64,000 bases of DNA, from contig MHAZ01000017.1 of assembly GCA_001803165.1 (NCBI GenBank), positions 372,001 through 436,000 of the forward strand, written 5' to 3'. This document shows positions 3,545 to 29,180 of this stretch, in pieces. The position numbers were made by a program, and so were the translations under genes. Below the pieces are notes generated by a model. The model saw only the letters and a program-made list of their open reading frames with translations, had not been told where the DNA came from and made no database searches. The DNA is from Stygiobacter sp. RIFOXYC2_FULL_38_25 (GTDB lineage: Bacteria > Bacteroidota > Ignavibacteria > Ignavibacteriales > Melioribacteraceae). Numbering within the stretch: position 1 is the stretch's first letter; the number at the start of each line of letters is the position of its first letter.

Positions 3545-4118
3545 CAGAATTTCTTTTTGAGTATTTAATCTATAAAAAACCGAAAGCATTAATTGGATAA
3601 TTTCAATATTGTTTTTACTTACATAAAGAGCTGTAGTCCAATCAGTAGTGAAATTAAAATAAGAGTAGTGTTAACAAAATTTGGCTCTCGGTTTTGTAAA
3701 TAACTCTTTAGCATGTAATGCTTTCTCAATATTTCCGCTAACTTGAGTGCAGATATCCTTGTTAATGGTTACTTAACGCCTAAGGAGCTATTGTTAGCCA
3801 AATAAAATAAAGTTCACAGTGTATAGCATAGATTTTTATTGGAGTTGATTTGATATTATATTTCTTTTAAGTTGCAACAAAACAGCGGGCGGTTAATGTT
3901 TCTACAATTCCTTATTAATACTTCTAATATTGTTTTCCTTATACCGATAGATGCTATCCAAATCAAACCAATTTTTCATGAATCATTTATAAAAACAATT
4001 ATATGACTTTTCACAGAAGCAGCTGGAAACTAATCCCACGAATTATTACAACCGTAATTCTGCCAAGAATAACTTTATGCTGAATGCCAAACTTATTATT
4101 CAAAATAGAGATCATAAA
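3545..4118. other. Noncoding gap of about 570 bases
   Basis: No gene or RNA was recognised. TTAACGCC (3773-3780) and GGCGGTTAA (3888-3896) form an imperfect inverted pair with one extra G, 107 bases apart. This is reminiscent of integron attC outer arms but too short to stand alone. A possible ATG at 4077 would extend the next gene but gives no signal peptide. Confidence 0.5.
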
Positions 4119-7100
4119 ATGAAAACCAACATCATTAGAGTAATTTATTTTTCAACTTTGCTATTCATCATTTCCTGTGGCTCCCAAAACACCGTTAAGG
4201 TTATAAGTTTTGATCCGGTTGGTGAGGTAAAAAGTCTTACAACATTCTCGGTAGAATTTACAGACGAACTTGCCCCGACAGATACTTTAAATCTATGGTT
4301 AGATGACGAATTCATACAATTCGAACCAAAGATAGTTGGTAAGTTCAAATGGACTTCTCCAACCACTCTAATGTTCTCGCCGGATATCCCGCTTCAGCCA
4401 ATCCAAAGTTATACTGCTCGAATTACCAACAAAGTGTTATTCAACAAAAAGGTAGAACTTGATCAAGATTCATATCAATTCAACACTTCCAAATTCAGTG
4501 CTACTAAAGCTGAGTTTTTCTGGGCTCATATTCCAAACGAAAAATTCAAAGTGAATGTGAAAGCAAATTTGTTTTTCAATTATGATGTTAATCCCGGCAT
4601 GCTAAAAGACTTTCTGAAAATTGAAAGAGAAGGAACAGAGATTAAAGATTTTCAAATTGCTTCGGAAGAAGCATCAAACATAATTGCAATTAGTATAGGC
4701 AACATCGAACAGTCCAACGAAGATCAAGAATACACTATTACGGTCAAGCGAGGGTTACTGTCGGTTGCAGGCAAAGAAGCTACTGTAGAGGACAAAGAAT
4801 TTGATTATGAACTTCCTCCTATTACTCAACTTGCAATTTATGGTGTTACAGCGGGTTTCGATGGACTTAAAGGATGGATTGAAGTTTCAACTTCGCAGAT
4901 GGTTGATGAAAAACGAATTAGGGAATTTGTAAATGTAGACAAGATGAAAAATGCTGCATTCTTTGTTGCCGAAAATACTTTTAGAATTGAGGGAGATATT
5001 GATGTAACCCAAAGCGTCAATCTAAAAATAAAAAAGGGATTGCCTGGATTATATGGCGGTGAATTGGAAAATGAATATGAGCAAGAAGTTAGCTTCGTAA
5101 ATCTTAATTCATCTATAAGTTTTGCTGATAAAAGCGGCAAGTATTTAATGCTAACCGGTCAACGTAATCTGATGGTAAACGCTGTAAATGTTCCGGGCGT
5201 GGATATCGAAGTTTCTCACGTGTTCAAAAACAATATCATCCATTTCCTTAATCAGTACGGCAATTACTACCAGGGCGAAGAAGATTATTATTACGATTCT
5301 TACTATGATGATCAACAAATGGAAAAGTATGGTAGAAGTATTTTAAGGCAATCGATAAACATCAGTAACAAGACAAACTGGCTTGAGAAGTTCACAGTAA
5401 ACCTTGATCAAATTTACACCAGGAAGCTGAAAGGTGTATTCGTTGCTCAGGTAAGATCAACTGAAGAGAGATGGGTTTATGGGTCTAAACTTGTAGCGCT
5501 AACCGATCTTGGAATCATAGCAAAGAGATCGGAAAGTGAATTGTTGGTTTTTGTAAACTCAATTTCTTCGGCAACTCCGGTAGAAGGTGTTGAAATCAGT
5601 TTAATATCCTCAAACAATCAAACTCTGCTCAGCGGAAAGACAAACTCCGATGGTGTTGTAAAATTTCAAGCGATTGAAGATAATTTGAAGGACTTTACAC
5701 CGCGAGTTATTACCGCAGAGAAAGGAGATGACTTCAATTACATCGATCTGCACGAAACGATGATTGAAACATCAAGATTTGATGTGGGAGGACAAACAAC
5801 TTTTTCATCCGGCTTAAAAACATTTTTATATGGCGATAGAAATCTTTACCGTCCCGGAGAGCTTATCAATATAACTGGAATTGTACGCGATGACGATACT
5901 AAGCCGGTTAAGGAAGTCCCGGTAATTATTAAAGTCATTTCCCCTACCGGAAAAATCTTTGATGAGTACAAAAAGAATTTAAATAAAGAAGGTTCCTTCG
6001 AAATTAATTTTTCAATTCCGGGTTACGCTATAACCGGTGAATACCGAGCTGAGGTTTATACCGGCTCCGGCTCATTAATCGGCACATACAGTTTTAGCGT
6101 TGAAGATTTTGTCCCCGATAAAATTCGTGTTAAGCTAGAAAACGAAAAGAAGATTGCTTCCATTGGTGAAACTGTTAAGATTGGCGTGGATGCCGAATAT
6201 TTATTTGGCGCAAAAGCTTCCGGATTAAGATATGAAGTTAGCATTCAGCTTAAACACAGATCATTCGTGAGCACAAAATATCCCTCGTTCGATTTTGCCA
6301 ACTCCAATATGCAAAACAGTAACCTTCAAGCAACTTTTGTTGATGGTAAACTTGATGATAAGGGAAAAGCTGAAATCAGTTACACTGTCCCAAGCACTTT
6401 GGTTTCCAGCGGAAAAGTTGCAGTCTATGCCTTTGTAAGTGTTTTTGATCTTTCAGGAAGAACTGTAAACCGAATGACGACTTTCGATGTCTTTCCGCAA
6501 AAGTATTATATCGGTATAAAATCTCCCGGCTATTACTTTTCTACGAATGACAATATTAATTTTAAGCTGATCGCGCTAGACAAAAATGAAAATACAGCTA
6601 CCGGGTTTAATGCAATAGTAAAACTTATACGGCTTGATTGGCAAACAGTTCTGAAGAAAGATAACTCGAACAGATTCTACTATGCTTCGGAGAAAAAGGA
6701 AGTAAACGTTTGGGAAAAAGATGTTGATCTTTCCGGCGGAGAAAAAAACATTCCGGTGCTTTTAACACAAAGCGGAGAATATGAACTGCGTGTTTACAGA
6801 AAGGGGGAAACCAGTTATCAGAGAAAAGAATTCTATGCTTACGGATGGGGTTCTTCTACCGCATCTTCATTCGAAGTAAACAAAGAAGGAAGAGTTGAAA
6901 TTGTTCTTGATAAGCAGTCGTATGAACCGGGCGAAAGCGCAAAAATACTTTTCACAGCTCCGTTTGCCGGAAGAATGTTAATTACATTTGAAAGAAATGG
7001 TGTTTATGAATACAAATATGTTGAAGTAAAGGAAAGATCAACTGAACTTGTAATTCCAATAAAGGAAAAATTTATCCCCAACGTGTATGTTACTGCTACT

Positions 7101-9578: not shown

Positions 9579-11909
9579 ATGTTTACAAAGAAATATAATT
9601 TCAAAAATATTGTTTGGATTATTGAATCAAGAGCAAGCTCTTTGCTTTATGTATCTTTAATTCTGCTGCTTGCTCTTGACTTGTTTTTCCCTCTGCCTGA
9701 GCAAAAGGAATTTTCGAAAGTTATCTATGCAAAAAACGGCTCGCTGCTATCGGCATATTTGACAAGAGATTCTAAATGGCGAATGAAATCAAGCATAGAC
9801 GAAGTTACACCGGATTTGCTTACAGCAATTATTGAAAAGGAAGACAAGTGGTTTTACTGGCACTTTGGAATAAATCCAATTGCAGTTACCAGAGCTCTCT
9901 TACAAAACGTAAGTAGCGGAACACGCGTCTCCGGTGCTTCAACAATAACGATGCAACTTGCAAGAATGCTGGAGCCATCTTCCCGGACTTACGGAAAGAA
10001 ATTCTTAGAGATGCTTCGTGCGTTCCAACTTGAATTACACTACAGCAAGCAGGAAATATTGGAAATGTATTTATCATTACTCCCATATGGAGGAAATATT
10101 GAGGGAATAAAATCCGCTTCATACGTTTATTTCAACCGGCCTCCCGATAAACTCAGTTTGTCGCAATCAATTCTACTCGCGGTTATTCCAAACGATCCTA
10201 ATTCTTTTAGATTGGATAAAGACGCGGCAAAAGCTATTAAGATGAGAAACCTCTGGATTAAAAAATATGACGCCAACAATACATTCACTAAGCGTGATTT
10301 AATTGACGCAATGAACGAACCGGTTTCAGTAAGCCGTTTTCAAGTTAAAAATGAAGCGCCCCACTTCAGCAATTATATAGCGCAACATTTCAGCGGAGAT
10401 AACATAAGAACCTCTCTGGATTTTCAGATTCAGAAAACGGCTGAACGGTTATTAAGCAATTATGTTAATCGTGTAAAATCCAAAAATGTTTCTAACGGGT
10501 CTCTGATTATAATTGATAACAAAACTAATTCTGTGGTTGGCTATTGCGGTTCTGCCGATTTTAATGATGTGGCTTCCTCCGGACAAGTTAATGGTGTGCT
10601 TGCTCTTCGCTCTCCCGGTTCAACTCTCAAACCTGCACTTTATACTTTGGCTTTCGATAACGGAATACTAACGCCTGAGATGAGATTACTTGATACTCCA
10701 ACTGATATTAATGGCTACGAACCCGAAAATTATGATCAGAAATTTAATGGCGAGGTAAGCGCCAAATATGCTTTAGTAAACTCTTTAAACATTCCCGCTG
10801 TTAGGCTTCTACAAAATATTGGTTTGGAAAAATTTGTTTCTTTTCTTTCCAAAGCCGGATTTGCAGACATAGAAAAACAAAAACGGGATCTTGGACTTTC
10901 TGTAATTCTTGGCGGTTGCGGAATCAGATTAGAACAACTCGCAAAATTATTTGCTGCCTTAGCAAATAACGGGAAACTACAATCGCTTAATTATCTTACA
11001 GAAAATACAAATGATGAGAGCAATGGTATCAAACTGTTCTCTCCTTCTGCTTCCTACATAACAAGTCAAATTCTTAGTTCAAACGAGCGGCCAGATTTTC
11101 CTGCCGAATTTCTTTACACAACCAATCTTCCTAAGATCGCGTGGAAGACCGGGACTTCATATGGTAAACGCGATGCCTGGGCTGTTGGCTATAATCCAGA
11201 TTATACAGTAGGCGTTTGGATGGGTAACTTTGACGGAACCGGCGCACCCGAGTTATCCGGCGCCGAAATGGCAGTGCCTCTTCTTTTCGAAATATTTAAT
11301 GCGATAGATTATAAACCAAGAAAAAAATGGTTTGACAAACATAAGGATGTTTTAGAGAGAGATGTTTGCTCGGAAACCGGATTACTTCTTACGGAAAATT
11401 GTGAACACTATATAAAAGATTATTCTATTAAACGTGTTTCTCCTAAGACTAAGTGCAATCTCTACAAAAAATTTTATGTAGATGAAAAAGAAACAATCCA
11501 ATATTGCCCTGAATGCTTACCGAACGAAGACTATAAAAAAGTGAATTACCCGATTTATAGTGCCGAACTAACTTTATGGTATTTGAAAAATAAAATTGTT
11601 TTCAAACGTCCACCTCCACACAATCCGGTGTGTCAAGCGAAACGGTCTGGCGATGGTCCGTTAATTCTTTCACCCTCTGCGGATTATGAATATTTTCTCG
11701 AAGAAAATTCTAAACAGCAAATACTTTTGCAAGCTGCTTCGGATGCTTCAGTTAAAACACAGTATTGGTATATCAACGATCAATTTTATAAAGCTTGCAA
11801 GCCTGGCGATAGAATTTTCTTCCAGCCTGAAGAAGGTATTTTGAGCATTACATGTATGGATGATGTTGGAAGAAAAACAAAAATTCTGACTAGGGTAATA
11901 ATTTATTAG
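9579..11909 (+). CDS. pbpC: Penicillin-binding protein 1C (bifunctional transglycosylase/transpeptidase)
   Basis: Class A PBP that polymerises and crosslinks peptidoglycan, anchored in the inner membrane by one N-terminal segment (about residues 18-36). The GT51 domain shows the catalytic 'EDKWFYWHFG' (Glu88) and 'SGASTITMQLARML'. The transpeptidase domain shows SxxK as S348-T-L-K351, an SxN motif in 'SLNIP', and 'KTGTSYGKRDAWAVGY'. A C-terminal BiPBP_C domain follows. It is rich in cysteines (for example 'CSETGLLLTENC' and 'CPECLP') and distinguishes PBP1C from PBP1A/1B. The 776-residue length matches PBP1C. It sits directly behind the alpha-2-macroglobulin gene, with which it is thought to cooperate in wall repair and defence. 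Confidence 0.95.
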   Translation: MFTKKYNFKNIVWIIESRASSLLYVSLILLLALDLFFPLPEQKEFSKVIYAKNGSLLSAYLTRDSKWRMKSSIDEVTPDLLTAIIEKEDKWFYWHFGINPIAVTRALLQNVSSGTRVSGASTITMQLARMLEPSSRTYGKKFLEMLRAFQLELHYSKQEILEMYLSLLPYGGNIEGIKSASYVYFNRPPDKLSLSQSILLAVIPNDPNSFRLDKDAAKAIKMRNLWIKKYDANNTFTKRDLIDAMNEPVSVSRFQVKNEAPHFSNYIAQHFSGDNIRTSLDFQIQKTAERLLSNYVNRVKSKNVSNGSLIIIDNKTNSVVGYCGSADFNDVASSGQVNGVLALRSPGSTLKPALYTLAFDNGILTPEMRLLDTPTDINGYEPENYDQKFNGEVSAKYALVNSLNIPAVRLLQNIGLEKFVSFLSKAGFADIEKQKRDLGLSVILGGCGIRLEQLAKLFAALANNGKLQSLNYLTENTNDESNGIKLFSPSASYITSQILSSNERPDFPAEFLYTTNLPKIAWKTGTSYGKRDAWAVGYNPDYTVGVWMGNFDGTGAPELSGAEMAVPLLFEIFNAIDYKPRKKWFDKHKDVLERDVCSETGLLLTENCEHYIKDYSIKRVSPKTKCNLYKKFYVDEKETIQYCPECLPNEDYKKVNYPIYSAELTLWYLKNKIVFKRPPPHNPVCQAKRSGDGPLILSPSADYEYFLEENSKQQILLQAASDASVKTQYWYINDQFYKACKPGDRIFFQPEEGILSITCMDDVGRKTKILTRVIIY

Positions 11910-17843: not shown

Positions 17844-19598
17844 ATGACTGTTCTACAAACTTTAGACTGGCTAGTTATCGCTGGTTATTTCGCAATTGTC
17901 TTAGGTTTGGCGTGGTGGGTAATGAAGAAACAACAAAAAACATCAACTGATTATTTCTTAGCCGGCAGACACTTAGGTTGGTTTGTGGTTGGTGCGTCAA
18001 TTTTTGCTTCTAACATTGGTTCCGAGCATTTGGTTGGTCTAGCAGGTTCGGGCGCTACAGATGGTGTAGCTATGGCGCATTACGAACTTCATGCATGGTG
18101 CCTGCTGATTTTGGGATGGGTAATGGTTCCTTTTTATATGCGCTCAAAAGTTTTTACCATGCCGGAATTTTTGGAAAGAAGATTTAATCCAAGAGCAAGA
18201 ACGGTGCTCTCGGCAATCTCGTTAGTGGCTTATGTATTAACAAAAATTGCAGTTGGTGTATTTGCCGGTGGTGTGGTTTTTTCGGTTTTGTTACCCGAGA
18301 TGAATTTTATGGGAATGGATAGTTTTTGGATTGGTTCAATCCTGGTAATTGTTATTACCGGGCTTTATACAGTAGTAGGCGGAATGACTGCTGTAGCTTA
18401 TACGGAAGCGCTTCAAACTATCATTCTAATTATTGGATCTGCTTTAGTTACATTTTTTGGACTAGAAGCTTTGGGCGGTTGGGGAGAATTAAAATCAATA
18501 GTTGGTAGTGAAATGTTCAACTTGTGGAAGCCTTTAGTTCCAAATGGAGTAGAAGGAACATGGGCGCCGGTAAAAGAAGTTGGAAGAATGGCGTGGTATT
18601 TCAATGATAATTATCCATGGATAGGAATGTTGTTTGCCGCGCCTATTATAGGATTGTGGTATTGGACAACTGATCAGTACATTGTTCAGAGAACATTATC
18701 CGCTCCAAATGAAACCGAAGCGCGTCGTGGTTCAATCGCCGCATCATTCTTCAAATTATTGCCGGTTTTCATTTTCATCATACCCGGTATAATAAGTTAT
18801 GCTCTGGCAGTAAGCGGAAAAATTCCGGCGCTTCAATCACAATTAATTGGCGCTGATGGAAAAATAATTAGAGACAACGCGCAACAAGCCTTTCCCTTAA
18901 TGGTAGCATATGTATTGCCCGTTGGCGTTAGAGGTATGGTTGTAGCTGGTTTACTGGCTGCGTTAATGAGTTCTCTCGCCGGAGTTTTCAATGCTTGTTC
19001 AACTCTTTTCACAATAGATTTCTATCAAAAATTAAGACCAAACGTTTCGCAAGAAAAATTAGTTTGGGTTGGTAGAGTAGCAACGGTAGTGATGGTAATT
19101 ATAGGATTAATGTGGCTTCCGGTTATTCGTGGCGGCAAAGGGTTGTATGATTATCTTCAAGGAATACAAGCATATTTAGCTCCACCAATCTTTGTTGTTT
19201 TCTTTGCCGGAGTATTTCATAAAAGATTGAATGCAAAAGGTGCGCTTGCTGCACTTTACACCGGATTCGCTCTTGGACTAATACGATTAGCGATAGATAC
19301 ACCGGTAAAACTTGTTAAAGGATTTTCATATTCGGAAGGCTCATTGTTATGGATTATTAATAATATTTTCTTCCAATACTATGGGTTGTTGATATTCATT
19401 GTAAGCTTAATAGTTATGGTTGTTGTTAGTTATATGAGTGAAGTACCGGACTACGCCAAAATATCCGGATTAACATTTGGGACAAGAACAGATGAACAGA
19501 AAAAAACAACTCGCGAAAGCTGGAGTGCAATTGATGTTATTGCTTCCGGAATTGTTCTTGCTTTAATTTTAATTGCGTACATCTATTTCTCCGGTTAA
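17844..19598 (+). CDS. Sodium/sugar symporter (SSS family, SGLT-like)
   Basis: Inner-membrane Na+-coupled sugar transporter, probably for xylose and/or arabinose given its place between xylBA and araBDA. The 584-residue protein has about 14 predicted hydrophobic helices. SSS signatures are 'DYFLAGRHLGWFVVGASIFASNIGSEHLVGLAGSGA' (in parts), the Na+-site region around helix 1, and 'AGLLAALMSSLAGVFNACSTLFTIDFYQ', the SGLT-type helix 8 with the SSL/SST motif. 'GAGG' lies 5-8 bases before the ATG at 17844. araB starts about 30 bases downstream. The exact sugar cannot be read from the sequence. Confidence 0.9.
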   Translation: MTVLQTLDWLVIAGYFAIVLGLAWWVMKKQQKTSTDYFLAGRHLGWFVVGASIFASNIGSEHLVGLAGSGATDGVAMAHYELHAWCLLILGWVMVPFYMRSKVFTMPEFLERRFNPRARTVLSAISLVAYVLTKIAVGVFAGGVVFSVLLPEMNFMGMDSFWIGSILVIVITGLYTVVGGMTAVAYTEALQTIILIIGSALVTFFGLEALGGWGELKSIVGSEMFNLWKPLVPNGVEGTWAPVKEVGRMAWYFNDNYPWIGMLFAAPIIGLWYWTTDQYIVQRTLSAPNETEARRGSIAASFFKLLPVFIFIIPGIISYALAVSGKIPALQSQLIGADGKIIRDNAQQAFPLMVAYVLPVGVRGMVVAGLLAALMSSLAGVFNACSTLFTIDFYQKLRPNVSQEKLVWVGRVATVVMVIIGLMWLPVIRGGKGLYDYLQGIQAYLAPPIFVVFFAGVFHKRLNAKGALAALYTGFALGLIRLAIDTPVKLVKGFSYSEGSLLWIINNIFFQYYGLLIFIVSLIVMVVVSYMSEVPDYAKISGLTFGTRTDEQKKTTRESWSAIDVIASGIVLALILIAYIYFSG

Positions 19599-22041: not shown

Positions 22042-23529
22042 ATGATAGACTTAAAAAATTATGAAGTTTGGTTCGCAACAGGAAGTCAGCATTTGTATGG
22101 ACCGAAAACTTTGCAGCAAGTGGCAGAAAATTCTCAAGCAATAGTTGATGGATTGAACAGCTCAAACCGTGTGCCTGTAAAAGTCGTTTTCAAACCGGTA
22201 TTAACTACGCCGGAATCAATCACCACACTTTTGACGCAAGCAAACTCTTCCTCAAAATGCATCGGCTTAATCACATGGATGCACACATTCTCTCCGGCTA
22301 AAATGTGGATTAGCGGATTGAAAATTTTACAAAAGCCGTTTTTGCATCTTCACACACAATTTAACCGTGATATCCCGTGGAACTCGATTGACATGGATTT
22401 TATGAATCTCAATCAATCCGCGCACGGCGACCGCGAGTTTGGTTTTATCTGCACTAGAATGAAGAAGGCGAGAAAAGTTGTTGTTGGGCACTGGCAAGAT
22501 GAAAACATTCAAAACCAAATTGCGCAATGGCAGAGAGTTGCTCTAGCATGGGCAGAAACGCAATCTTTAAAAGTTGCCCGCTTCGGTGATAACATGCGCT
22601 TTGTTGCTGTAACCGAAGGAGATAAAGTTGAATCTGAAATTCAGTTCGGTTACTCCGTTAATGGTTTTGGTGTCGGCGATTTGGTAAAAGTTGTAAACTC
22701 TGTTAGCGATAAAGAAATAAATCAGCTTGTTGATTTGTACTTTACAACTTATGATGTTGCTAAAGAAGCTCAAAAAGGTGGAGCCAAATTTGATAACTTG
22801 CGCGAGACTGCCAGAATTGAATTAGGTATGCGTAAGTTTTTGGAGACCGGCGGATTCAAAGCCTTTACTACAACGTTTGAAGATTTACACGGATTAAAAC
22901 AATTGCCCGGACTTGCGGTTCAAAGGTTGATGGCTGATGGTTACGGATTTGGCGCGGAAGGAGATTGGAAAACCGCCGCATTATTACGCGCGGCTAAAGT
23001 TATGTCTGTTGGTTTGCAGGGCGGTACATCATTCATGGAAGATTATACTTACCACATGAACCCCGCCGGAATGCAAGTTCTAGGCGCGCATATGCTTGAA
23101 GTTTGCTCTTCTATTGCTTCAGATAAACCACGATTGGAAGTTCATCAATTAGGAATTGGCGGAAAAGATGATCCGCCAAGATTAGTATTCAACGTTCCAA
23201 CCGGTCTAGCATTGAACGCATCGTTAATACACATGGGTAACCGTTTTAGATTAATTGTTAACGAAGTAGATGTAGTTAAACCGGAACATGATTTGCCTAA
23301 ACTTCCGGTAGCGAGAGCTCTTTGGGTTCCAAAACCAAATCTGCAAATCGGCGCTGCCGCGTGGATTCTCGCCGGCGGTGCTCATCATACTGTTTTCAGT
23401 CAAGCTATTACTCCTGAATACTTTGAAGACTTTGCCGAGATTGCAGGAATTGAATATGTGTTAATTGATAGTTCGACAAATCTCCGCGACTTCAAAAAAG
23501 AACTGAGATGGAATGAATTATATTATTAA
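22042..23529 (+). CDS. araA: L-arabinose isomerase
   Basis: Converts L-arabinose to L-ribulose, the first step of the pathway. The 495-residue length is standard. The N-terminus '[15 protein letters not shown]' is the family hallmark. '[15 protein letters not shown]' and '[15 protein letters not shown]' line the active site. '[26 protein letters not shown]' carries the metal-site Glu, and '[11 protein letters not shown]' and '[10 protein letters not shown]' carry metal-binding Glu and His residues. 'AAAGGAAACGAG' precedes the ATG. It is the last gene of the araBDA unit, and no clear terminator was seen before the accessory region. Confidence 0.97.
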
Positions 23530-23573
23530 CTCACCTTACGCAAAAAGTTTTATCTCGGCGTAACTCAGTGACT

Positions 23574-23648
23574 CCTCTGTGGCACTCTGTGTAAAAAAAA
23601 TAGAAATATCACAAAGAAACACAGAGCAAATACAGAGATTCACAGAGA
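23574..23648. repeat. CTCTGTG/CACAGAG repeat cluster
   Basis: CTCTGTG occurs twice (near 23575 and 23585). It is followed by its reverse complement in ACACAGAG (23619-23626), TACAGAG (23631-23637) and CACAGAG (23641-23647). CTCTGTGT at 23585-23592 and ACACAGAG can form an 8-bp stem across an A-rich loop. Similar 'cacagag' strings are known as dispersed intergenic repeats in several bacterial lineages. Here it marks the edge of the accessory region. Confidence 0.45.
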
Positions 23649-23884
23649 AAAGATATTCATTCTGAATCTTGTATCCTTGAGGCTTGCTGAACTTCTTTGA
23701 GTAGGAGAGCTTCCTAAACTCCCCCCTTTATTTTCTCCCTTGATTAACAAAAAGCCAATTGCTAAGTTGCAAACAGCAACGGGGTTCCATTCTAACAACT
23801 TCTGGGGGAACCGAAAAAGAGACAAGTACGAATTACGATTTATGAATTACGAAGTAACGCCAAATAGATTTTCTTTGAATGAAT

Positions 23885-24022
23885 TATAAACGTGTGTGCT
23901 TGTCCGCCGTTTGCTTGCGGAATGGCAAGAACTTTAAAGCGATTACAAATAAAAACTAAATAAATGCCGGTAGATATGACGCATAATGTGGCCTCAGTCT
24001 GGCGGGATAATTAATAGTTATA
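23885..24022 (+). repeat. Candidate attC-like site 1 (upstream of the first cassette gene)
   Basis: TATAAAC (23885-23891) and GTTATA (24017-24022) are near-complementary outer ends. CCGCC (23904-23908) and GGCGG (24001-24005) are inner arms. A further small hairpin (CTTG..CCGC / GCGG..CAAG, 23899-23929) lies inside. The right arm TGGCGGGATA (24000-24009) is identical to the arm before the third cassette gene. The gene begins 25 bases after the core. The pairing is imperfect and the assignment tentative. Confidence 0.35.
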
Positions 24023-24046
24023 ACAAATTAAATTGAAGAGTTATGT

Positions 24047-24499
24047 ATGGAACAAAGAGTAATGAATTATTTTTCCCTAGGAGGAAGTGTTGCAAGTATT
24101 ATTGCGTTATTGATAGTGCTAATCGAAAAAAGTTCTGATAATCCTCAACTTGTTATTTGGAAAATAATATTAGGTCTAATATGCATATTATTTATGGGTG
24201 GTGTCTGTGTATATATTTATGATTTGTTAAAAGCTGTCTGGATCAATTCAAACTTTACGCTTAAAAAGAAAGCCGCATTAACTACACTTGATGTTTCTAT
24301 TGGCCTTATATTAATTGCAATAGCTTTAGATGCAGTTTTGGCAATAGTTGAATGGAGAGTTTGGTTGTATGATATTGTTAGTTTTTTTTGTCCGGTTAAT
24401 AAAAAATTTGTTTTAATTGGTATAACAAACACCTCAACAGCGACCGCCTCTTCTGTGCGGTCGTTTGATGAGGTTATAGAGCTTGGATTTTCAATGTAA
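24047..24499 (+). CDS. Small membrane protein of unknown function (cassette gene 1)
   Basis: A 150-residue protein with three predicted membrane helices (about residues 10-27, 38-62 and 82-106). I recognise no family. Its C-terminus, from about residue 125 ('ITNTSTATASSVRSFDEV'), is encoded by an attC-like palindrome at 24421-24478. The low-complexity Ser/Thr tail is therefore probably read-through of recombination-site DNA rather than conserved protein. The start ATG at 24047 follows the GTTAT core at 24017-24021 by about 25 bases. The next gene lies on the same strand. Confidence 0.55.
   Translation: MEQRVMNYFSLGGSVASIIALLIVLIEKSSDNPQLVIWKIILGLICILFMGGVCVYIYDLLKAVWINSNFTLKKKAALTTLDVSIGLILIAIALDAVLAIVEWRVWLYDIVSFFCPVNKKFVLIGITNTSTATASSVRSFDEVIELGFSM
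24421..24478 (+). repeat. Compact attC-like palindrome
   Basis: The outer ends TATAAC (24421-24426) and GTTATA (24473-24478) are exact reverse complements. Inside them CCTCA (24432-24436) pairs with TGAGG (24469-24473), and CGACCGC (24441-24447) pairs with GCGGTCG (24457-24463) around a 9-base loop. The unpaired segments are short and asymmetric, as in folded integron attC sites (R''-L''-loop-L'-R'). The left half (TATAACAAACACCTCAA) resembles the start of Vibrio cholerae repeats as I remember them. It overlaps the 3' end of the preceding reading frame. Confidence 0.5.
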
Positions 24500-24552
24500 G
24501 TTATTCTTATAAATATGATTGCAATACTAAACTGATTAATAAATACAAAGTT

Positions 24553-24612
24553 GCGTTGGCAAATCTTAGCCGTTTTGTTTAGGGCGGCGCGTTAGGCGCA
24601 ACGCTGTTATGC
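24553..24612 (+). repeat. Candidate attC-like site 2 (upstream of the DUF262 gene)
   Basis: GCGTTGGC (24553-24560) pairs with GGCGCAACGC (24595-24604), leaving one unpaired G at 24598. Inside, GCCG (24569-24572) pairs with CGGC (24585-24588). A GTTAGGC at 24591-24597 matches the integron core GTTRRRY. A second core, GTTATGC (24606-24612), follows immediately. The DUF262 start lies 25 bases further on. An extrahelical base in the arm is a known attC feature, but the left core is not clear. Confidence 0.4.
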
Positions 24613-24636
24613 CTTTGAAAAATATTGGAGATGAAT

Positions 24637-26223
24637 ATGAAATATCTAGAACCGAAACCCGAAATATTACGGATAGAAGAATTGGTTATAAAGGTCAAAC
24701 AAGGAGATATCAAGCTTCCTAAATTTCAAAGACCATTCGTTTGGAACCGCGATGACATTATTAAATTATTAGATAGTATATATAATGGTTACCCAATCGG
24801 CAGTATTCTTCTTTGGCTTACATTTCAACAATTAGCAAGTGAGAACAAAATTGGTGATTTACATATAAATGAAAGACCTGATGAATATCCAACTAACTAT
24901 CTATTAGATGGCCAACAAAGATTGTCAACATTGTGTGGTACTTTATTCTATGATGGAATTAACAAAGACAGCCAATGGAATGTAGTGTTTGATGTTGAAA
25001 CAGAAACATTTCTTTATCCAGAGGATGAAGAAAAAATTAATTACTTCCCATTAAATAAACTGATTGATACTACAAGTTTTATTAATCAATGCAAAGCTTT
25101 TGAAGCTTCAAAACACAAAATACCATATACTCGAAATGCCGAAAAATTACTAAAATCAATCAAGGATTATAAGGTTGCTGCAGTTACAATCGGAGATATG
25201 AGTTTAGATGAAGTGGCCCCAATCTTTGAAAGAATAAATAGTTCTGGGCGTCAATTAACTATGGTAGATCTAATGAGAGCAGCTACTTGGAAAGGTGGAT
25301 TTGATCTAAATGATGCCATTAATTCAGTAAGAGAGGCCTGTGAGTCAAAATATTTTTATGACATCCCCGATACACACATACTAAGAAATATTTCGGCTTG
25401 TGCTGGTTTAGGTATTCATAAAGAAGGAATTGAAAAACTTCGTGATCGTTCTTCTTCAGAACTCAAAATTGCATCTGATAATTGCACTGAAGCATACAAA
25501 TTGGCTGTTGATTTTTTGTCAACAGAACTTCCCCTTACTTCTATAGCATATTTGCCCTATAGTTTGCAATTAACTCTTCTTGTTGAGTTTTTTAATATCA
25601 ACAAACATCCTAATAAATCCACAAGGAATAAGTTGATAAAATGGTTCTGGAAGACATCCTTTTCTAAATATTTTGGTATTGCTAATACAGCATTAATTAC
25701 GCAATCCTTGGATAATATTAGACTTTTTGCCAAAGGTAAAAAGGATGACTTTGTTATTGAGAAAGAATTTCGCGAAGATACATTCTTAAACGACACCTTT
25801 ATGCTTAACAAAGCAACAAGCAAAGTCTTTGCTCTTTTACTAGCTGATAATAAACCCAACAGTTTATTAAGCGGTGCTGTTATAGACATTGGGAAGGCAC
25901 TTGCCCTAATAAACCGTTTAGAATATCATCATATCTTTCCAAAAGCCTATTTAAAAACAGAAGGATATACGAAAGATGAGTATGATATCCATCTTAATAT
26001 CTGTATGCTCAACTTAACCAACAATCGCGAAATATCTGATAAGAAGCCATCCGAATATTTTCCTGAAATAAAAAGAAGATTGGGAGATAATTTGGAATCA
26101 GTTTTGCTTTCTAATTATTTGGATATGGAATGTTTCGAGCACGCATTAGTAAATGATTTTGAAGCATTTGCTTATCACAGGGCAGAATTATTATCGAACA
26201 AAATAGAAGCATTAATTAGCTAA
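24637..26223 (+). CDS. DUF262/DUF1524 protein, GmrSD-like (cassette gene 2)
   Basis: Probable defence nuclease/NTPase. The start at 24637 is chosen because GGAG (24627-24630) lies 6 bases upstream; TTG at 24625 and ATG at 24631 are alternatives. About 528 residues. The N-terminal DUF262 (ParB/sulfiredoxin-like fold) shows 'IKLPKFQRPFVWNRDDI', 'YPIGSILLW' and the diagnostic 'LLDGQQRLSTL'. The C-terminal part carries a DUF1524/HNH-like motif 'LEYHHIFPKAYL' with 'LNLTNNREISDKKPSEYF' (His-His and Asn residues). This is the arrangement of GmrSD-type modification-dependent restriction proteins and relatives in other phage-defence systems. It is a stand-alone gene flanked by attC-like sites, unlike its chromosomal neighbours. 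Target and activity are unknown. Confidence 0.82.
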   Translation: MKYLEPKPEILRIEELVIKVKQGDIKLPKFQRPFVWNRDDIIKLLDSIYNGYPIGSILLWLTFQQLASENKIGDLHINERPDEYPTNYLLDGQQRLSTLCGTLFYDGINKDSQWNVVFDVETETFLYPEDEEKINYFPLNKLIDTTSFINQCKAFEASKHKIPYTRNAEKLLKSIKDYKVAAVTIGDMSLDEVAPIFERINSSGRQLTMVDLMRAATWKGGFDLNDAINSVREACESKYFYDIPDTHILRNISACAGLGIHKEGIEKLRDRSSSELKIASDNCTEAYKLAVDFLSTELPLTSIAYLPYSLQLTLLVEFFNINKHPNKSTRNKLIKWFWKTSFSKYFGIANTALITQSLDNIRLFAKGKKDDFVIEKEFREDTFLNDTFMLNKATSKVFALLLADNKPNSLLSGAVIDIGKALALINRLEYHHIFPKAYLKTEGYTKDEYDIHLNICMLNLTNNREISDKKPSEYFPEIKRRLGDNLESVLLSNYLDMECFEHALVNDFEAFAYHRAELLSNKIEALIS

Positions 26224-26388
26224 GGCATTATCAGCCGCTCAACGGGTGCTGTGTCTTTCAGTATGGCTTTTGTCTAATAATAAAATAGTAGTTGTAATGT
26301 AAGTTGTTTACCAGAAGGGGTGCCTTCGGCATAAGAAACATTTTTATAAATAAAAGAGGTTGCAGTTAATTGGCATTGCTGTTCATGG

Positions 26389-26416
26389 TGGCGGGATAGA
26401 CGCAAAGTCGTTATTC
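26389..26416 (+). repeat. attC-like right half before cassette gene 3
   Basis: TGGCGGGATA (26389-26398) is the same ten bases found before cassette gene 1. The arm GGGATAGACGC (26393-26403) and core GTTATTC (26410-26416) lie just before the lipoprotein start at 26431. The arm is an exact reverse complement of GCGTCTATCCC at 26966-26976, on the other side of that gene. Confidence 0.45.
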
Positions 26417-26430
26417 GTACCGGGAGAAAG

Positions 26431-26952
26431 ATGGGAATATATTTTAGGAATCTTACTTTTATTGTAATTGTGTTATCAATTATCTCATGCAAAAAAGATA
26501 ACATTGTAGAATCAACACAATCAGATTATTTCCCAATACATGTAGGCGCAATTATCAAATACAAATACACTTCTTCAGCATCTAGTATTGTATATACGTT
26601 TCATGATGAGGGAGAAGCTGTATGGAATATCTCTTCGGTAAAAGACGTTGATGGTTCTTTTATTTATTCTGCTACAGAAACCAAAACTCTTATGTCTTCA
26701 ACTAATGGCGCCACCCCAATTCGTCGTGAGGTGAAGCTGTCATTTGAAATAATTGAAGATAAATCAGCGTTAGTTACATTAAAAGGATTAATTAATATTT
26801 CTTTCAATAGATATAAGAATGATGATAAGTTGAATGGCAATAAAATTATTATCCCCGAAGGGGGATACGTTGATTTTGAAAATAATCTCGGTATTACAAA
26901 AATATTTCGAATTGGTAATAGGTGGTCAGAAACTTATGAATTGGTTAGGTGA
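26431..26952 (+). CDS. Small lipoprotein of unknown function (cassette gene 3)
   Basis: 173 residues. The N-terminus has a lipoprotein signal with lipobox 'LSIISC' (Cys near residue 20) and 'KKD' after it. The rest is predicted beta-rich ('YFPIHVGAIIKYKYTSSASS', 'GGYVDFENNLGITKIFRIGNRW'). The phrase 'YFPIHVGAIIKYKY' recalls the 'yfPl..Gn.w.Y' start of many uncharacterised Bacteroidota/Ignavibacteriota lipoproteins. GGGAG lies just before the ATG. The gene lies between exact 11-base inverted arms, consistent with a mobile cassette. Function unknown. Confidence 0.65.
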   Translation: MGIYFRNLTFIVIVLSIISCKKDNIVESTQSDYFPIHVGAIIKYKYTSSASSIVYTFHDEGEAVWNISSVKDVDGSFIYSATETKTLMSSTNGATPIRREVKLSFEIIEDKSALVTLKGLINISFNRYKNDDKLNGNKIIIPEGGYVDFENNLGITKIFRIGNRWSETYELVR

Positions 26953-26957
26953 ATATG

Positions 26958-27006
26958 TATAACACGCGTCTATCCCATCTGCCCCGCAAAAAGAGCGGGG
27001 CTGATT
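26958..27006 (+). repeat. attC-like left half and hairpin after cassette gene 3
   Basis: TATAAC (26958-26963) and the arm GCGTCTATCCC (26966-26976) begin 6 bases after the lipoprotein stop. They are followed by the hairpin ATCTGCCCCGC / GCGGGGCTGAT (26977-27005, one mismatch, 7-base loop). The matching right half is not seen downstream; only a GTTAAAC core near 27022 follows. The hairpin could alternatively serve as a bidirectional terminator between this gene and the convergent helicase gene. Confidence 0.4.
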
Positions 27007-27086
27007 TAACAAATACATCGTTAAACTCAGTACATGTTTTCGCGGATTATTTATTTGAAGAATTACTTTTGAGACGCCCTCTTTTT

Positions 27087-29180
27087 TTAATAACCGGCAA
27101 ATAAAGAAGTATATCTTTTCCGTGATTTCTTATTACCGATTGCAATTGTTAAAGCTTGTTTTGAACCGATAAGAATCATCATATCTTTTGCACGAGTCAC
27201 AGCAGTATATAATAAATTTCTTTGAAGCATTACATAGTGTGCCGTTGTTATTGGCATTACAACACATGGATATTCTGAACCTTGCGACTTGTGTACTGTT
27301 ATAGCATAAGATAGAGCAATATCGTCAAGCTCAGAAAATTGATAGGGGACAAGCTTGTTGCCAAACTCAACTTCAAGTTTCTGATTCTCATTGTCAATCT
27401 TTGTGATTATTCCAATATCGCCGTTGTAAATATCTTTATCATAATTGTTTCTTAACTGAATTACCTTATCTCCGAGCTTCAATAGCTTATCACCTCTGCT
27501 TAGGAAAATATCACTGTTATTCAGAATACTTTGCTGAACTGAGTTGAGATTATCTACTCCGGTTTCCCCCTTGTACATTGGTGTGAGAACTTGAATATCC
27601 TTTACCGGATCAAATCCATATTTCTCCGGCAACCTTTTTGTGCAGAGGTCAATAATCAGTTCCGGGATTTTAGCTGTATCTGCTTCGTGTATAAAGTAAA
27701 AATCGGATAAGGCTCCGTTTGAGAAGACCGGCAGTTCACCTTTATTTATTCTGTGAGCGTTGACTACTATTTGGCTTTCTTCTGCTTGCCGAAAAATTTT
27801 GGTTAACATTGCAGTAGGTATCTTCCCCGATTCTATCAGATCATGCAAAATATTGCCGCAGCCTACAGATGGTAGCTGGTCAACATCTCCGACTAAAATA
27901 AGTGTTGTTTCATTATCTAATGCGGCAAGCAAATGATGCATTAGTATTGTATCTATCATTGATACTTCATCAACAACTAAAAGGTCGGCATTAAGCGGTT
28001 CGTTTTCATTTACCATGAAGAAATTGTCTTTGGGATTATACTCAAGTAACCGGTGAATGGTTTTTGCCTCCATCCCAATTACTTCACTCATTCTCTTTGC
28101 GGCTCTTCCGGTAGGTGCCGCAAGCATAATTTTTTTTCCAAGCTGCTTGTGAGAATCAATGATGCCCTTTAGTGCTGTAGTTTTGCCGGTTCCGGGACCA
28201 CCGGTGAGTATCAGAATCTTATGTAGTAACGAATTGCGTATTGCTTCCAGCTGTTCTTCCGAATAAAAATCTGTTCTAAGTTTTATACTATCTAATTGTG
28301 CCTGCGATAGCTTGCAGCTAGTACTAAGTAGAACATTTATTTTATTCTCTATACTCCTTTCAGCATGATAATAGTAAGTGAGATAAATGTTATCGCCAAT
28401 TATTTTTATGAGTCCATCATCTTCCATTTCACGGAAGAATAAAAGCGAGTCAGATAAATCCACTTCTATAAGTTCGAAACATTTCTGCACTAATTCCTTA
28501 AGCGGTAGAAATACATGCCCATCATTTGCCGCGTTATTTAGCGAGTACAATATTCCGGATTTTAATCTGTATGGATGTTCATCGGTAAAGCCAACGCTCT
28601 TACCAATCTTATCGGCAGTTCTAAAACCTATTCCCCAAATGTCATAAGTTAATTGATATGGATTCTCTTGTACTTTCCGAATCGAGTTTCTGCCGTAAAC
28701 TTGAAATATCTTCATTGCATATGCTGGTGAAATATCGAAGGATTGCAGATAAATCATTACATCCTTTACAGCTTTTTGCTCGTCCCAAGACTTTTTTATT
28801 AATTCAAGTTTTTTCTTTCCAATTCCTTCAACTTCAAGAAGTCTGCTCGAATCATTATCTAGAATTTCCAGTGTTTCTTCATGAAATACTTCTACTATTT
28901 TTTCAGCTGTAGCCGGTCCTACCCCTTTAATTAATCCGGAACCCAAATATTTTATGATACCGTCGGTAGTGGTAGGAAGTACTATTGAGTAGGATTCTAC
29001 CTTAAACTGCTGTCCGAATTTTGGATGCGTCTCAAACTCGCCGGTTAGTTTTAGCTTTTCTCCAACCTTAATGTTGGATAGAATTCCTACTGCTTTCAAC
29101 CCATTAGATAAGGCAGCTACACTATAACCGTTAGTTTCGTTTCTATATATGAATGATTCTAAGATTGCTTCAATAATCAT
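27087..29180 (-). CDS. recD2: RecD2-like ATP-dependent DNA helicase
   Basis: Superfamily 1B 5'-3' helicase of the RecD/TraA (YrrC) type, found in bacteria without RecBCD and linked to DNA repair. 697 residues, slightly shorter than the usual 720-750. The N-terminal OB-like region (residues 1-70) and tandem helix-hairpin-helix region ('GLIKGVGPATAEKIVEVF', 'LEVEGIGKKKLELI') are the RecD2 hallmark. Walker A is GGPGTGKT at residues 327-334, followed by 'APTGRAAKRM' and the Walker B region 'LLVVDEVSMID'. 'LVGDVDQLPSVGCGNILHD', 'IFRQ', and the C-terminal 'ITVHKSQGSEY' and 'LLYTAVTRAKD' complete motifs III-VI. It is convergent with the cassette region and stands alone. Confidence 0.94.
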   Translation of the reverse strand: MIIEAILESFIYRNETNGYSVAALSNGLKAVGILSNIKVGEKLKLTGEFETHPKFGQQFKVESYSIVLPTTTDGIIKYLGSGLIKGVGPATAEKIVEVFHEETLEILDNDSSRLLEVEGIGKKKLELIKKSWDEQKAVKDVMIYLQSFDISPAYAMKIFQVYGRNSIRKVQENPYQLTYDIWGIGFRTADKIGKSVGFTDEHPYRLKSGILYSLNNAANDGHVFLPLKELVQKCFELIEVDLSDSLLFFREMEDDGLIKIIGDNIYLTYYYHAERSIENKINVLLSTSCKLSQAQLDSIKLRTDFYSEEQLEAIRNSLLHKILILTGGPGTGKTTALKGIIDSHKQLGKKIMLAAPTGRAAKRMSEVIGMEAKTIHRLLEYNPKDNFFMVNENEPLNADLLVVDEVSMIDTILMHHLLAALDNETTLILVGDVDQLPSVGCGNILHDLIESGKIPTAMLTKIFRQAEESQIVVNAHRINKGELPVFSNGALSDFYFIHEADTAKIPELIIDLCTKRLPEKYGFDPVKDIQVLTPMYKGETGVDNLNSVQQSILNNSDIFLSRGDKLLKLGDKVIQLRNNYDKDIYNGDIGIITKIDNENQKLEVEFGNKLVPYQFSELDDIALSYAITVHKSQGSEYPCVVMPITTAHYVMLQRNLLYTAVTRAKDMMILIGSKQALTIAIGNKKSRKRYTSLFAGY

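Follow-up and report, generated by a model that had tools for sequence, protein, structure and literature searches.

The window, the 64,000-nucleotide stretch of Stygiobacter sp. RIFOXYC2_FULL_38_25 DNA analysed here (part of contig C17; the genome comprises 4.41 Mb on 22 contigs), carries a leader, an attI-like site and three genes in the same orientation (Table 1). They lie between the genes encoding L-arabinose isomerase (araA, 22042-23529, NF002795) and the RecD2 helicase (recD2, 27087-29180, minus strand, TIGR01448). This locus is very probably an integron cassette array without an integrase. An earlier note, made from the letters of the window alone, had described it as a candidate cluster of attC sites lacking an integron integrase (CALIN), for which the available text of PMC9024848 sets a threshold of two attC sites. 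This description was supported by two attC sites well above background, by at least 34 attC sites in the genome and by a single integron integrase gene (intI) over the cut-off, found on another contig. The two attC sites of the window, the second of which is degenerate, correspond to the CALIN minimum.

Table 1 Features of the cassette array, in window coordinates
Feature	Coordinates	Strand	Basis
Leader A	23740-23872	+	R2 match 23744-23872, 99.6 bits (window in training set)
attI-like site, core GTTATAA 24017-24023	23950-24023	+	Aligns with the stretch 3' of intI in L077, L080 and L078
Cassette 1 gene, 150-aa protein with hydrophobic stretches	24047-24499	+	Open reading frame; 3' end overlaps attC
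attC site 1	24420-24612	+	R1 81.3 bits, E 1.4e-15; 21/23 model pairs standard; top de novo match
Cassette 2 gene, 532-aa GmrSD_N (DUF262) protein	24625-26223	+	PF03235 E 3.2e-32, 112.7 bits (cut-off 33.2)
attC site 2, degenerate left half	26225-26416	+	R1 45.6 bits, E 4.2e-8; 16/23 model pairs standard
Cassette 3 gene, 173-aa lipoprotein-like protein	26431-26952	+	Matches in 8/145 other genomes
Possible decayed attC after cassette 3	26957-27026	+	Weak: de novo score 32; R1 13.4 bits, E 0.24 (right part)

attC sites and cassette genes at the locus

attC sites were detected with a covariance model of the lineage (R1), run instead of IntegronFinder, and two sites in the window scored well above background. 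R1 was built from 21 attC sites located beside intI genes of Ignavibacteria, four from contig C8 of the same genome and 17 from nine other genomes, with the window excluded; sites cut by contig ends and two candidates of another type (L010:18355-18457 and L023:6058-6135) were left out of the alignment. The R1 structure consists of 23 pairs. In the alignment, 93.2% of the cells pair and 79 cells are changed on both sides, where shuffled alignments gave 24.6; the pairing was lost when the partner was shifted by one to three columns. Across 83 distinct sites, whose alignment was fitted to the model, pairing reached 90.8%, with 320 cells changed on both sides against 115.6. R1 is a model of the lineage; it gave two weak matches in 25 of a set of 80 loci.

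The third-best R1 match in the window reached 13.4 bits (E 0.24), and beyond the two attC sites an unfiltered R1 scan of 23300-27300 gave nothing over this value. A de novo attC finder, which requires complementary R''/R' and L''/L' elements and which had supplied the R1 training sites from the loci around intI, was run on the window at a minimum length of 50. A score of at least 34 was reached there by 24420-24612 alone, and by nothing in three 64-kb Markov sequences scanned on one strand each. Scored with ungapped half-site position weight matrices (PWMs), the right halves of attC sites 1 and 2 ranked first and second of 127,936 positions.

The elements of attC site 1 are R'' GTATAAC, left arm CACCTCAACAGCGACCGC, right arm GGCGGCGCGTTAGGCGC and R' GTTATGC; the R' of attC site 2 is GTTATTC (26410-26416). 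The earlier note had taken GTTRRRY as the form of R', which neither site has. This rule is not valid for the lineage, since only 3 of the 21 training sites fit it and 12 carry GTTATAY, as counted by eye. Site 2 is a degenerate site, which corrects the array as first described, and it is probably decayed and dead.

The three same-strand open reading frames, the GTTAT cores at 24017, 24606 and 26410 and the ten-base arm TGGCGGGATA at 24000-24009 and 26389-26398, all listed in the earlier note, were found in the sequence. Its proposal that each GTTAT is an attC core held for 24606 and 26410, both recognised by the covariance model, but failed for 24017, which scored at background with R1 and ranked 568 of 127,936 positions with the right-half PWM. 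Homology and position suggest that this first core is attI-like. The compact palindrome at 24421-24478 proved to be real (the bottom strand of 24415-24485 folds at -14.2 kcal/mol, z -4.35); it shares positions with the left half of the longer attC site 24420-24612 and, taken alone, is a weaker attC-like site. The 11-base arm pair noticed around the third gene was identified as GGGATAGACGC at 26393-26403 and GCGTCTATCCC at 26966-26976. We rejected these arms as terminal repeats of a separate mobile element, because a rough calculation gives about 0.6 chance 11-base inverted matches within 600 bp per 4 kb and because each arm fits an attC half-site.

Directly after the stop codon of cassette 3, a sequence resembling a left half-site (GTATAAC-AC-GCGTCTATCCC) is followed by a GTTAAAC core at 27020-27026; the left-half and right-half PWMs ranked this region 24th and about sixth of about 128,000 positions, respectively. 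The half-site behind cassette 3 may be truncated or inverted. Its 11 bases are complementary to the attC half before cassette 3, and it lacks the extrahelical C present in 21 of 21 training sites.

The protein encoded by cassette 1 had no Pfam, PADLOC or NCBIfam match and no relative in 145 other genomes of the order. Cassette 2 had been annotated as encoding a DUF262/DUF1524 protein. The DUF262 part stood, as GmrSD_N, whereas DUF1524 gave no Pfam match, although an HHIFPK motif is visible in the translation. The closest PADLOC model was PDC-M55C (E 1.4e-84), so that cassette 2 may be regarded as a candidate phage-defence gene carried as cassette cargo. A GmrSD protein scan of the genome contigs gave 31 pattern matches and no relative. 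In the cassette 3 family, attC was found beside the relative in four of seven loci scanned, on both sides in two of them (L070 and L072).

The attI-like site, the integrase and the leader

Cassettes are presumed to be inserted after G24017. Among the loci aligned with the attI-like site, L077 belongs to Stygiobacter electus. The attI core TAATAGTTAT, searched as the motif TAATAGTTA[TG], was found 109-189 bp downstream of intI in 18 of 28 intI loci, which are partly dependent (L084 and L020 give the same attI) and one of which (L094) has 15 bases behind intI. The ten loci without the motif include three with near variants, judged by eye, three with the array on the other side and the one with only 15 bases. 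Across all loci examined, true sites included, the motif occurred 21.7 times per Mb and strand, corresponding to about 0.24 expected occurrences in 28 x 400 bp. In the window it was found at 24012, and also at 19408 (plus strand) and 32140 (minus strand). The core of the window lies 139 bp behind the leader, with no intI at the locus. Two types of attI were observed in the genome, one resembling GGCGGGATAATTAATAGTTAT (window 23950-24023, C2 and C19:1889) and one with GGTGCAGCATAAGTAATAGTTAT (L212:3932-4011), which is preceded by a GCAGCACCGTGCATATATATG stretch and occurs at C8, behind intI, and at C16; leaders are common to both types.

Integron integrases scoring over the TIGR02249 cut-off were present in 18 of 39 relatives, the source genome included. 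The absence of an integrase at the locus, asserted in the earlier note, was confirmed: among the matches listed for the genome, the only one over the cut-off lies on contig C8, not C17. This intI is split into two overlapping frames (L009:9752-10156 and 10153-10857), the larger of which scored 325 bits (cut-off 265); the frameshift may be genuine or may stem from a sequencing error. Most intI loci of the lineage that have attC sites carry the array 3' of intI and on the same strand, the attI core lying in between; all R1 matches in L078, L079, L080, L084, L086, L087, L109 and L144, for example, are placed in this way. At L010, L017 and L021, attC sites were seen on the other side of intI and on the other strand, and at L012 they were seen upstream of intI on its own strand. 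The order may thus contain two integron layouts. Near the intI of genome G011, the attC-like site L023:6058-6135 (78 bp, 63% GC) is unlike the attC sites of the lineage and perhaps represents a cassette from another phylum.

R1 matches with E up to 0.01 were found in 31 of the 39 genomes, ten of the 39 having supplied training sites. All 18 genomes with intI over the cut-off had matches, and none of the eight without matches has such an intI. These scans scored the best 59 candidates per genome, and the best 150 in the source genome, where the matches (at least 34) are distributed over contigs C1, C2, C3, C4, C8, C9, C12, C16, C17, C19, C20, C21 and C22.

To the left, the unit extends further than first described, to about 23740, and includes a leader common to intI loci. 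The leader model R2 was built from 15 copies of the source genome, the window included. At E up to 0.01 it matched 24 places in this genome, namely the 15 training copies, all above 50 bits, and nine weaker ones; elsewhere it matched six places in G002, three in G003 and, weakly (E 6e-4 to 6e-3), five in four further genomes. The leader lies 5' of intI at C8 (48754-48870, 86.9 bits, with intI from 48919), 5' of an intI fragment at a contig end in G002 (C220, 48.8 bits) and, as a weak match, 5' of intI in G003 (C61, 21.4 bits, E 8e-4).

The leader contains a predicted promoter. In the window, TTGA (23740-23743) and TAAGTTG (23763-23769) are separated by 19 bases, with the conserved leader after them, and TTGA-N19-TAnnTT is found in 15 of 15 leaders of the genome with a spacer of exactly 19 bases. 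S. electus has no R2 match, yet it carries TTGA-N19-TAnnTT 5' of its intI; the pattern was not found in the stretches tested for G002:C220 and G003:C61. It resembles the primary sigma consensus of B. fragilis, given in the available text of PMC7366714 as TTTG at about -33 and TAnnTTTG at -7. The leader also holds a GGTTCC/GGAACC hairpin, whose arms showed no co-variation by eye; the idea that it acts as an RNA switch was discarded.

Leader-attI units elsewhere in the genome and in relatives

Twelve of the 15 strong leaders precede an attC site on the same strand within 2.3 kb, the C8 copy with intI being counted. As for the other three, C16:1344 is at a contig end, C4:108996 has no attC and C4:136516 is followed by a partial attC-like match 4 kb on. 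The 14 copies without intI, among them the one in the window, have an exact attI core 64-188 bp behind the leader in eight cases, a variant in four and none near in two. At C8, leader and attI core are 1123 bp apart, with intI between them. Units without intI were also found in two relatives, G003 (C361, exact attI core) and G002 (C483, variant core), each with a leader and attC. No attC was found in the stretches examined at the leaders G002:C294, G002:C7 and G003:C403, and the leader loci G002:C369 and G002:C112 are cut by contig ends.

One of the units, C19:52572, could be compared with empty sites. The matched stretches of its flanking genes are about 2830 bp apart in the source genome, and the same genes lie 315 bp (G004), 335 bp (G005) and 404 bp (G001) apart without attC. 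G002 is occupied at the equivalent place, with leader, variant attI core and attC, and G003 has 1.7 kb without attC. By this comparison, at least one leader unit was gained at a place where three congeners have the two flanking genes side by side. A motif near AACTACATAATTGGGTGGTTT is kept in this intergenic region whether occupied or empty (L207, minus-strand query 1855-1882; L281, L282, L283 and L284). For the window locus, no empty site was found: araA was present in 7 and recD2 in 10 of 23 genomes, the source genome included, and the two adjoin only in the source genome among the genomes listed.

Arrays that have attI and lack intI seem to occur beyond the source genome. Upstream of attC sites away from intI, the attI core was found on the strand of the array in 9 of 37 segments and in none on the other strand. 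The nine segments come from G024 (two), G026, G007, G021, G037, G036, G012 and the congener G004 (Stygiobacter electus 09-Me). At none of these places does an intI exceed the cut-off, and G024, a genome of one contig, has no such intI anywhere. The 37 segments were hand-picked among the matches listed (36 of 38, plus L262, in which neither strand has the core; L263, a 20-kb segment surrounding an intI fragment, was unused). Several are short, further attC sites lie upstream in 14 of 36, L228 has attC upstream of the core itself, and the L254 core, 75 bp from attC, may be due to chance.

Other dispersed sequences were observed in the genome. The region 23530-23670, next to araA, is a cacagag-rich intergenic repeat of about 140 bp, 88-92% identical to copies at C21:622250, C6:166342 and C6:4599. 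A known RNA family was rejected, with no Rfam gathering match; four Rfam miRNA-family matches, with E below 1 and far under the cut-offs, fell over the repeat at 23544-23656. A repeat of about 200 bp occurs at about ten places (L207, minus-strand query 3953-4157; C4:108752-108971, C1:18769, C21:191948, C19:57644, C12:33551, C17:296856 and C16:67821); one copy ends 25 bp before the C4:108996 leader and another lies behind the C19:52572 unit.

Alternative explanations and relation to known integrons

The elements read from the sequence are two attC sites, attI homology, a common leader, the lack of intI at the locus and a frameshifted intI over the cut-off on C8. In the array we propose, the leader runs into the attI-like site, behind which follow three cassettes in one orientation; the first two would end in attC sites 1 and 2, and the third in a decayed or truncated one. 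An IntI from another locus of the lineage would have inserted circular cassettes at attI in trans, by recombination of attI with attC in which attC takes part as its folded bottom strand, and the inserted genes would be transcribed from the leader promoter. The array may now be frozen, given the split C8 intI and attC sites that are either degenerate or misfolded.

Several observations weigh against an integron array at this locus. No complete attC was demonstrated after cassette 3, where the best R1 match is the one of 13.4 bits. The left halves of the two attC sites ranked only 12 and 10 with the ungapped PWM, and R' of both lies outside GTTRRRY. Only one of the three cassette genes was shown to lie beside attC elsewhere, since cassette 1 has no relative and the relatives of cassette 2 had no attC in 11 loci scanned (about 1.5 kb flanks). 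Folding was also unfavourable. The minimum-energy fold of the bottom strand of 24420-24612 contains 0 of 23 attC pairs, as the nested hairpin 24421-24478 wins (-25.7 kcal/mol free versus -14.3 with the attC helix forced), and 26225-26416 likewise forms 0 of 23 pairs (-13.1 versus +9.2 kcal/mol). At least 14 of the expected pairs are present in 11 of the 21 training sites; one site has 9 of them and the remaining nine have none, and penalties ranged up to 22 kcal/mol. The fold test thus does not separate true from false sites, because nine of 21 sites beside intI fail in the same way. Misfolding does not exclude an attC, yet it speaks against good activity, and attC site 1 may be a poor one.

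Some observations on the dispersed units are likewise unfavourable. The two intI-less copies without an attI core within 400 bp are C19:52572 and C21:133670; the former is the unit that has empty sites, although its G002 counterpart has a variant core. At C4:108996 and C4:136516, two of the 14 intI-less copies, no good attC follows although the contig continues. Among the nine weaker leaders, no attC was found in the six loci scanned (C20:249, C1:94581, C6:12494, C11:130648, C1:106955 and C2:11943).

How the integrase-less units arose can be explained in more than one way. Each locus could once have held a complete integron from which intI was deleted, so that leader, attI and cassettes remained. 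This ordinary local decay is a serious contender, if short of an even chance: integrase inactivation and loss are common in Xanthomonas according to the available text of PMC12444791, the C8 intI is itself frameshifted, and leader and attI flank intI at C8 and G003:C61. Against it, about seven copies of the attI type of the window have a common leader-attI spacer, as judged by eye, and directly behind the leader there is also a resemblance to the bases found with the other attI type. These similarities are more easily explained if ready-made units without an integrase were copied than if a dozen deletions took place separately.

The position of the working attC in cassette 1 was also considered. 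The compact palindrome at 24420-24479 (R'' GTATAAC, R' GTTATAG) scored 34 in the finder when the minimum length was lowered to 40, and the strand folds into it, so that the long site could be an older, decayed one. We consider this unlikely; the long site scored 39, its right half outranks every other position of the window as a match to the lineage, and the next gene starts behind the core at 24606.

That the leader is a generic dispersed intergenic promoter element with no relation to integrons, adjoining cassettes by chance, appears very improbable. The genome does contain other dispersed intergenic repeats, and six weaker leaders, as well as those of G002:C294, G002:C7 and G003:C403, had no attC in the loci scanned; against this, a same-strand attC follows in 12 of the 15 strong copies, and a leader precedes intI in three genomes. 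Finally, three unrelated genes with chance GTTAT cores and hairpins are hardly credible, for despite short cores, an unsettled right end, the background score of 24017 as attC and non-canonical folds, the two attC sites gave E values of 1.4e-15 and 4.2e-8 with a model built without the window.

The locus in the window is thus well supported as a cassette array without integrase and is ordinary as such, whereas the pattern of dispersed leader-attI platforms across the genome is probably new. No description of such platforms was found in the literature searched, which was covered in part and with narrow terms. The usual integron picture is one integrase, one attI and one array. As a tentative suggestion, which we hold to be possible and on balance doubtful, Stygiobacter and its relatives may have a distributed integron, in which one integrase serves many promoter-attI platforms with one to few cassettes each and platforms are copied to new chromosomal sites. 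Captured cassettes would then not be kept in a single long silent array but would be expressed at a dozen loci, as the first gene of each. Dispersed platforms served in trans would allow a genome to express many captured cassettes simultaneously, each of them in first position, and would mean that some CALINs are functional platforms rather than debris. With the attC model of the lineage, the attI core and the leader, this idea is testable in a group that is not known to include pathogens.

CALINs, arrays with dead integrases and complete integrons of Ignavibacteriae are already in print (PMC9024848, PMC12444791 and PMC9668308, in their available text). Complete integrons are reported to have been found previously in Ignavibacteriae (PMC9024848); the C8 locus, with its frameshifted intI, is of that kind, and the window locus has no integrase. 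According to the available text of PMC9668308, CALIN cassettes can be moved by IntI in trans. The atypical integrons of Treponema have intI transcribed toward attI (PMC3607928, available text), and the lineage resembles them in that its arrays mostly lie 3' of intI on the same strand; it differs in belonging to another phylum, in a few loci with attC on the other side and in its many integrase-less platforms. As in the Xanthomonas integrons with inactivated or deleted intI (PMC12444791), arrays outlive the integrase and CALINs occur at several loci per genome, whereas the leader-attI unit recurs here at about a dozen loci and none is described in the available text of that study. Like a CALIN, the window has two attC sites, cassettes in one orientation and no intI nearby. 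Unlike a bare attC cluster, it keeps a promoter-like leader and an attI-like site.

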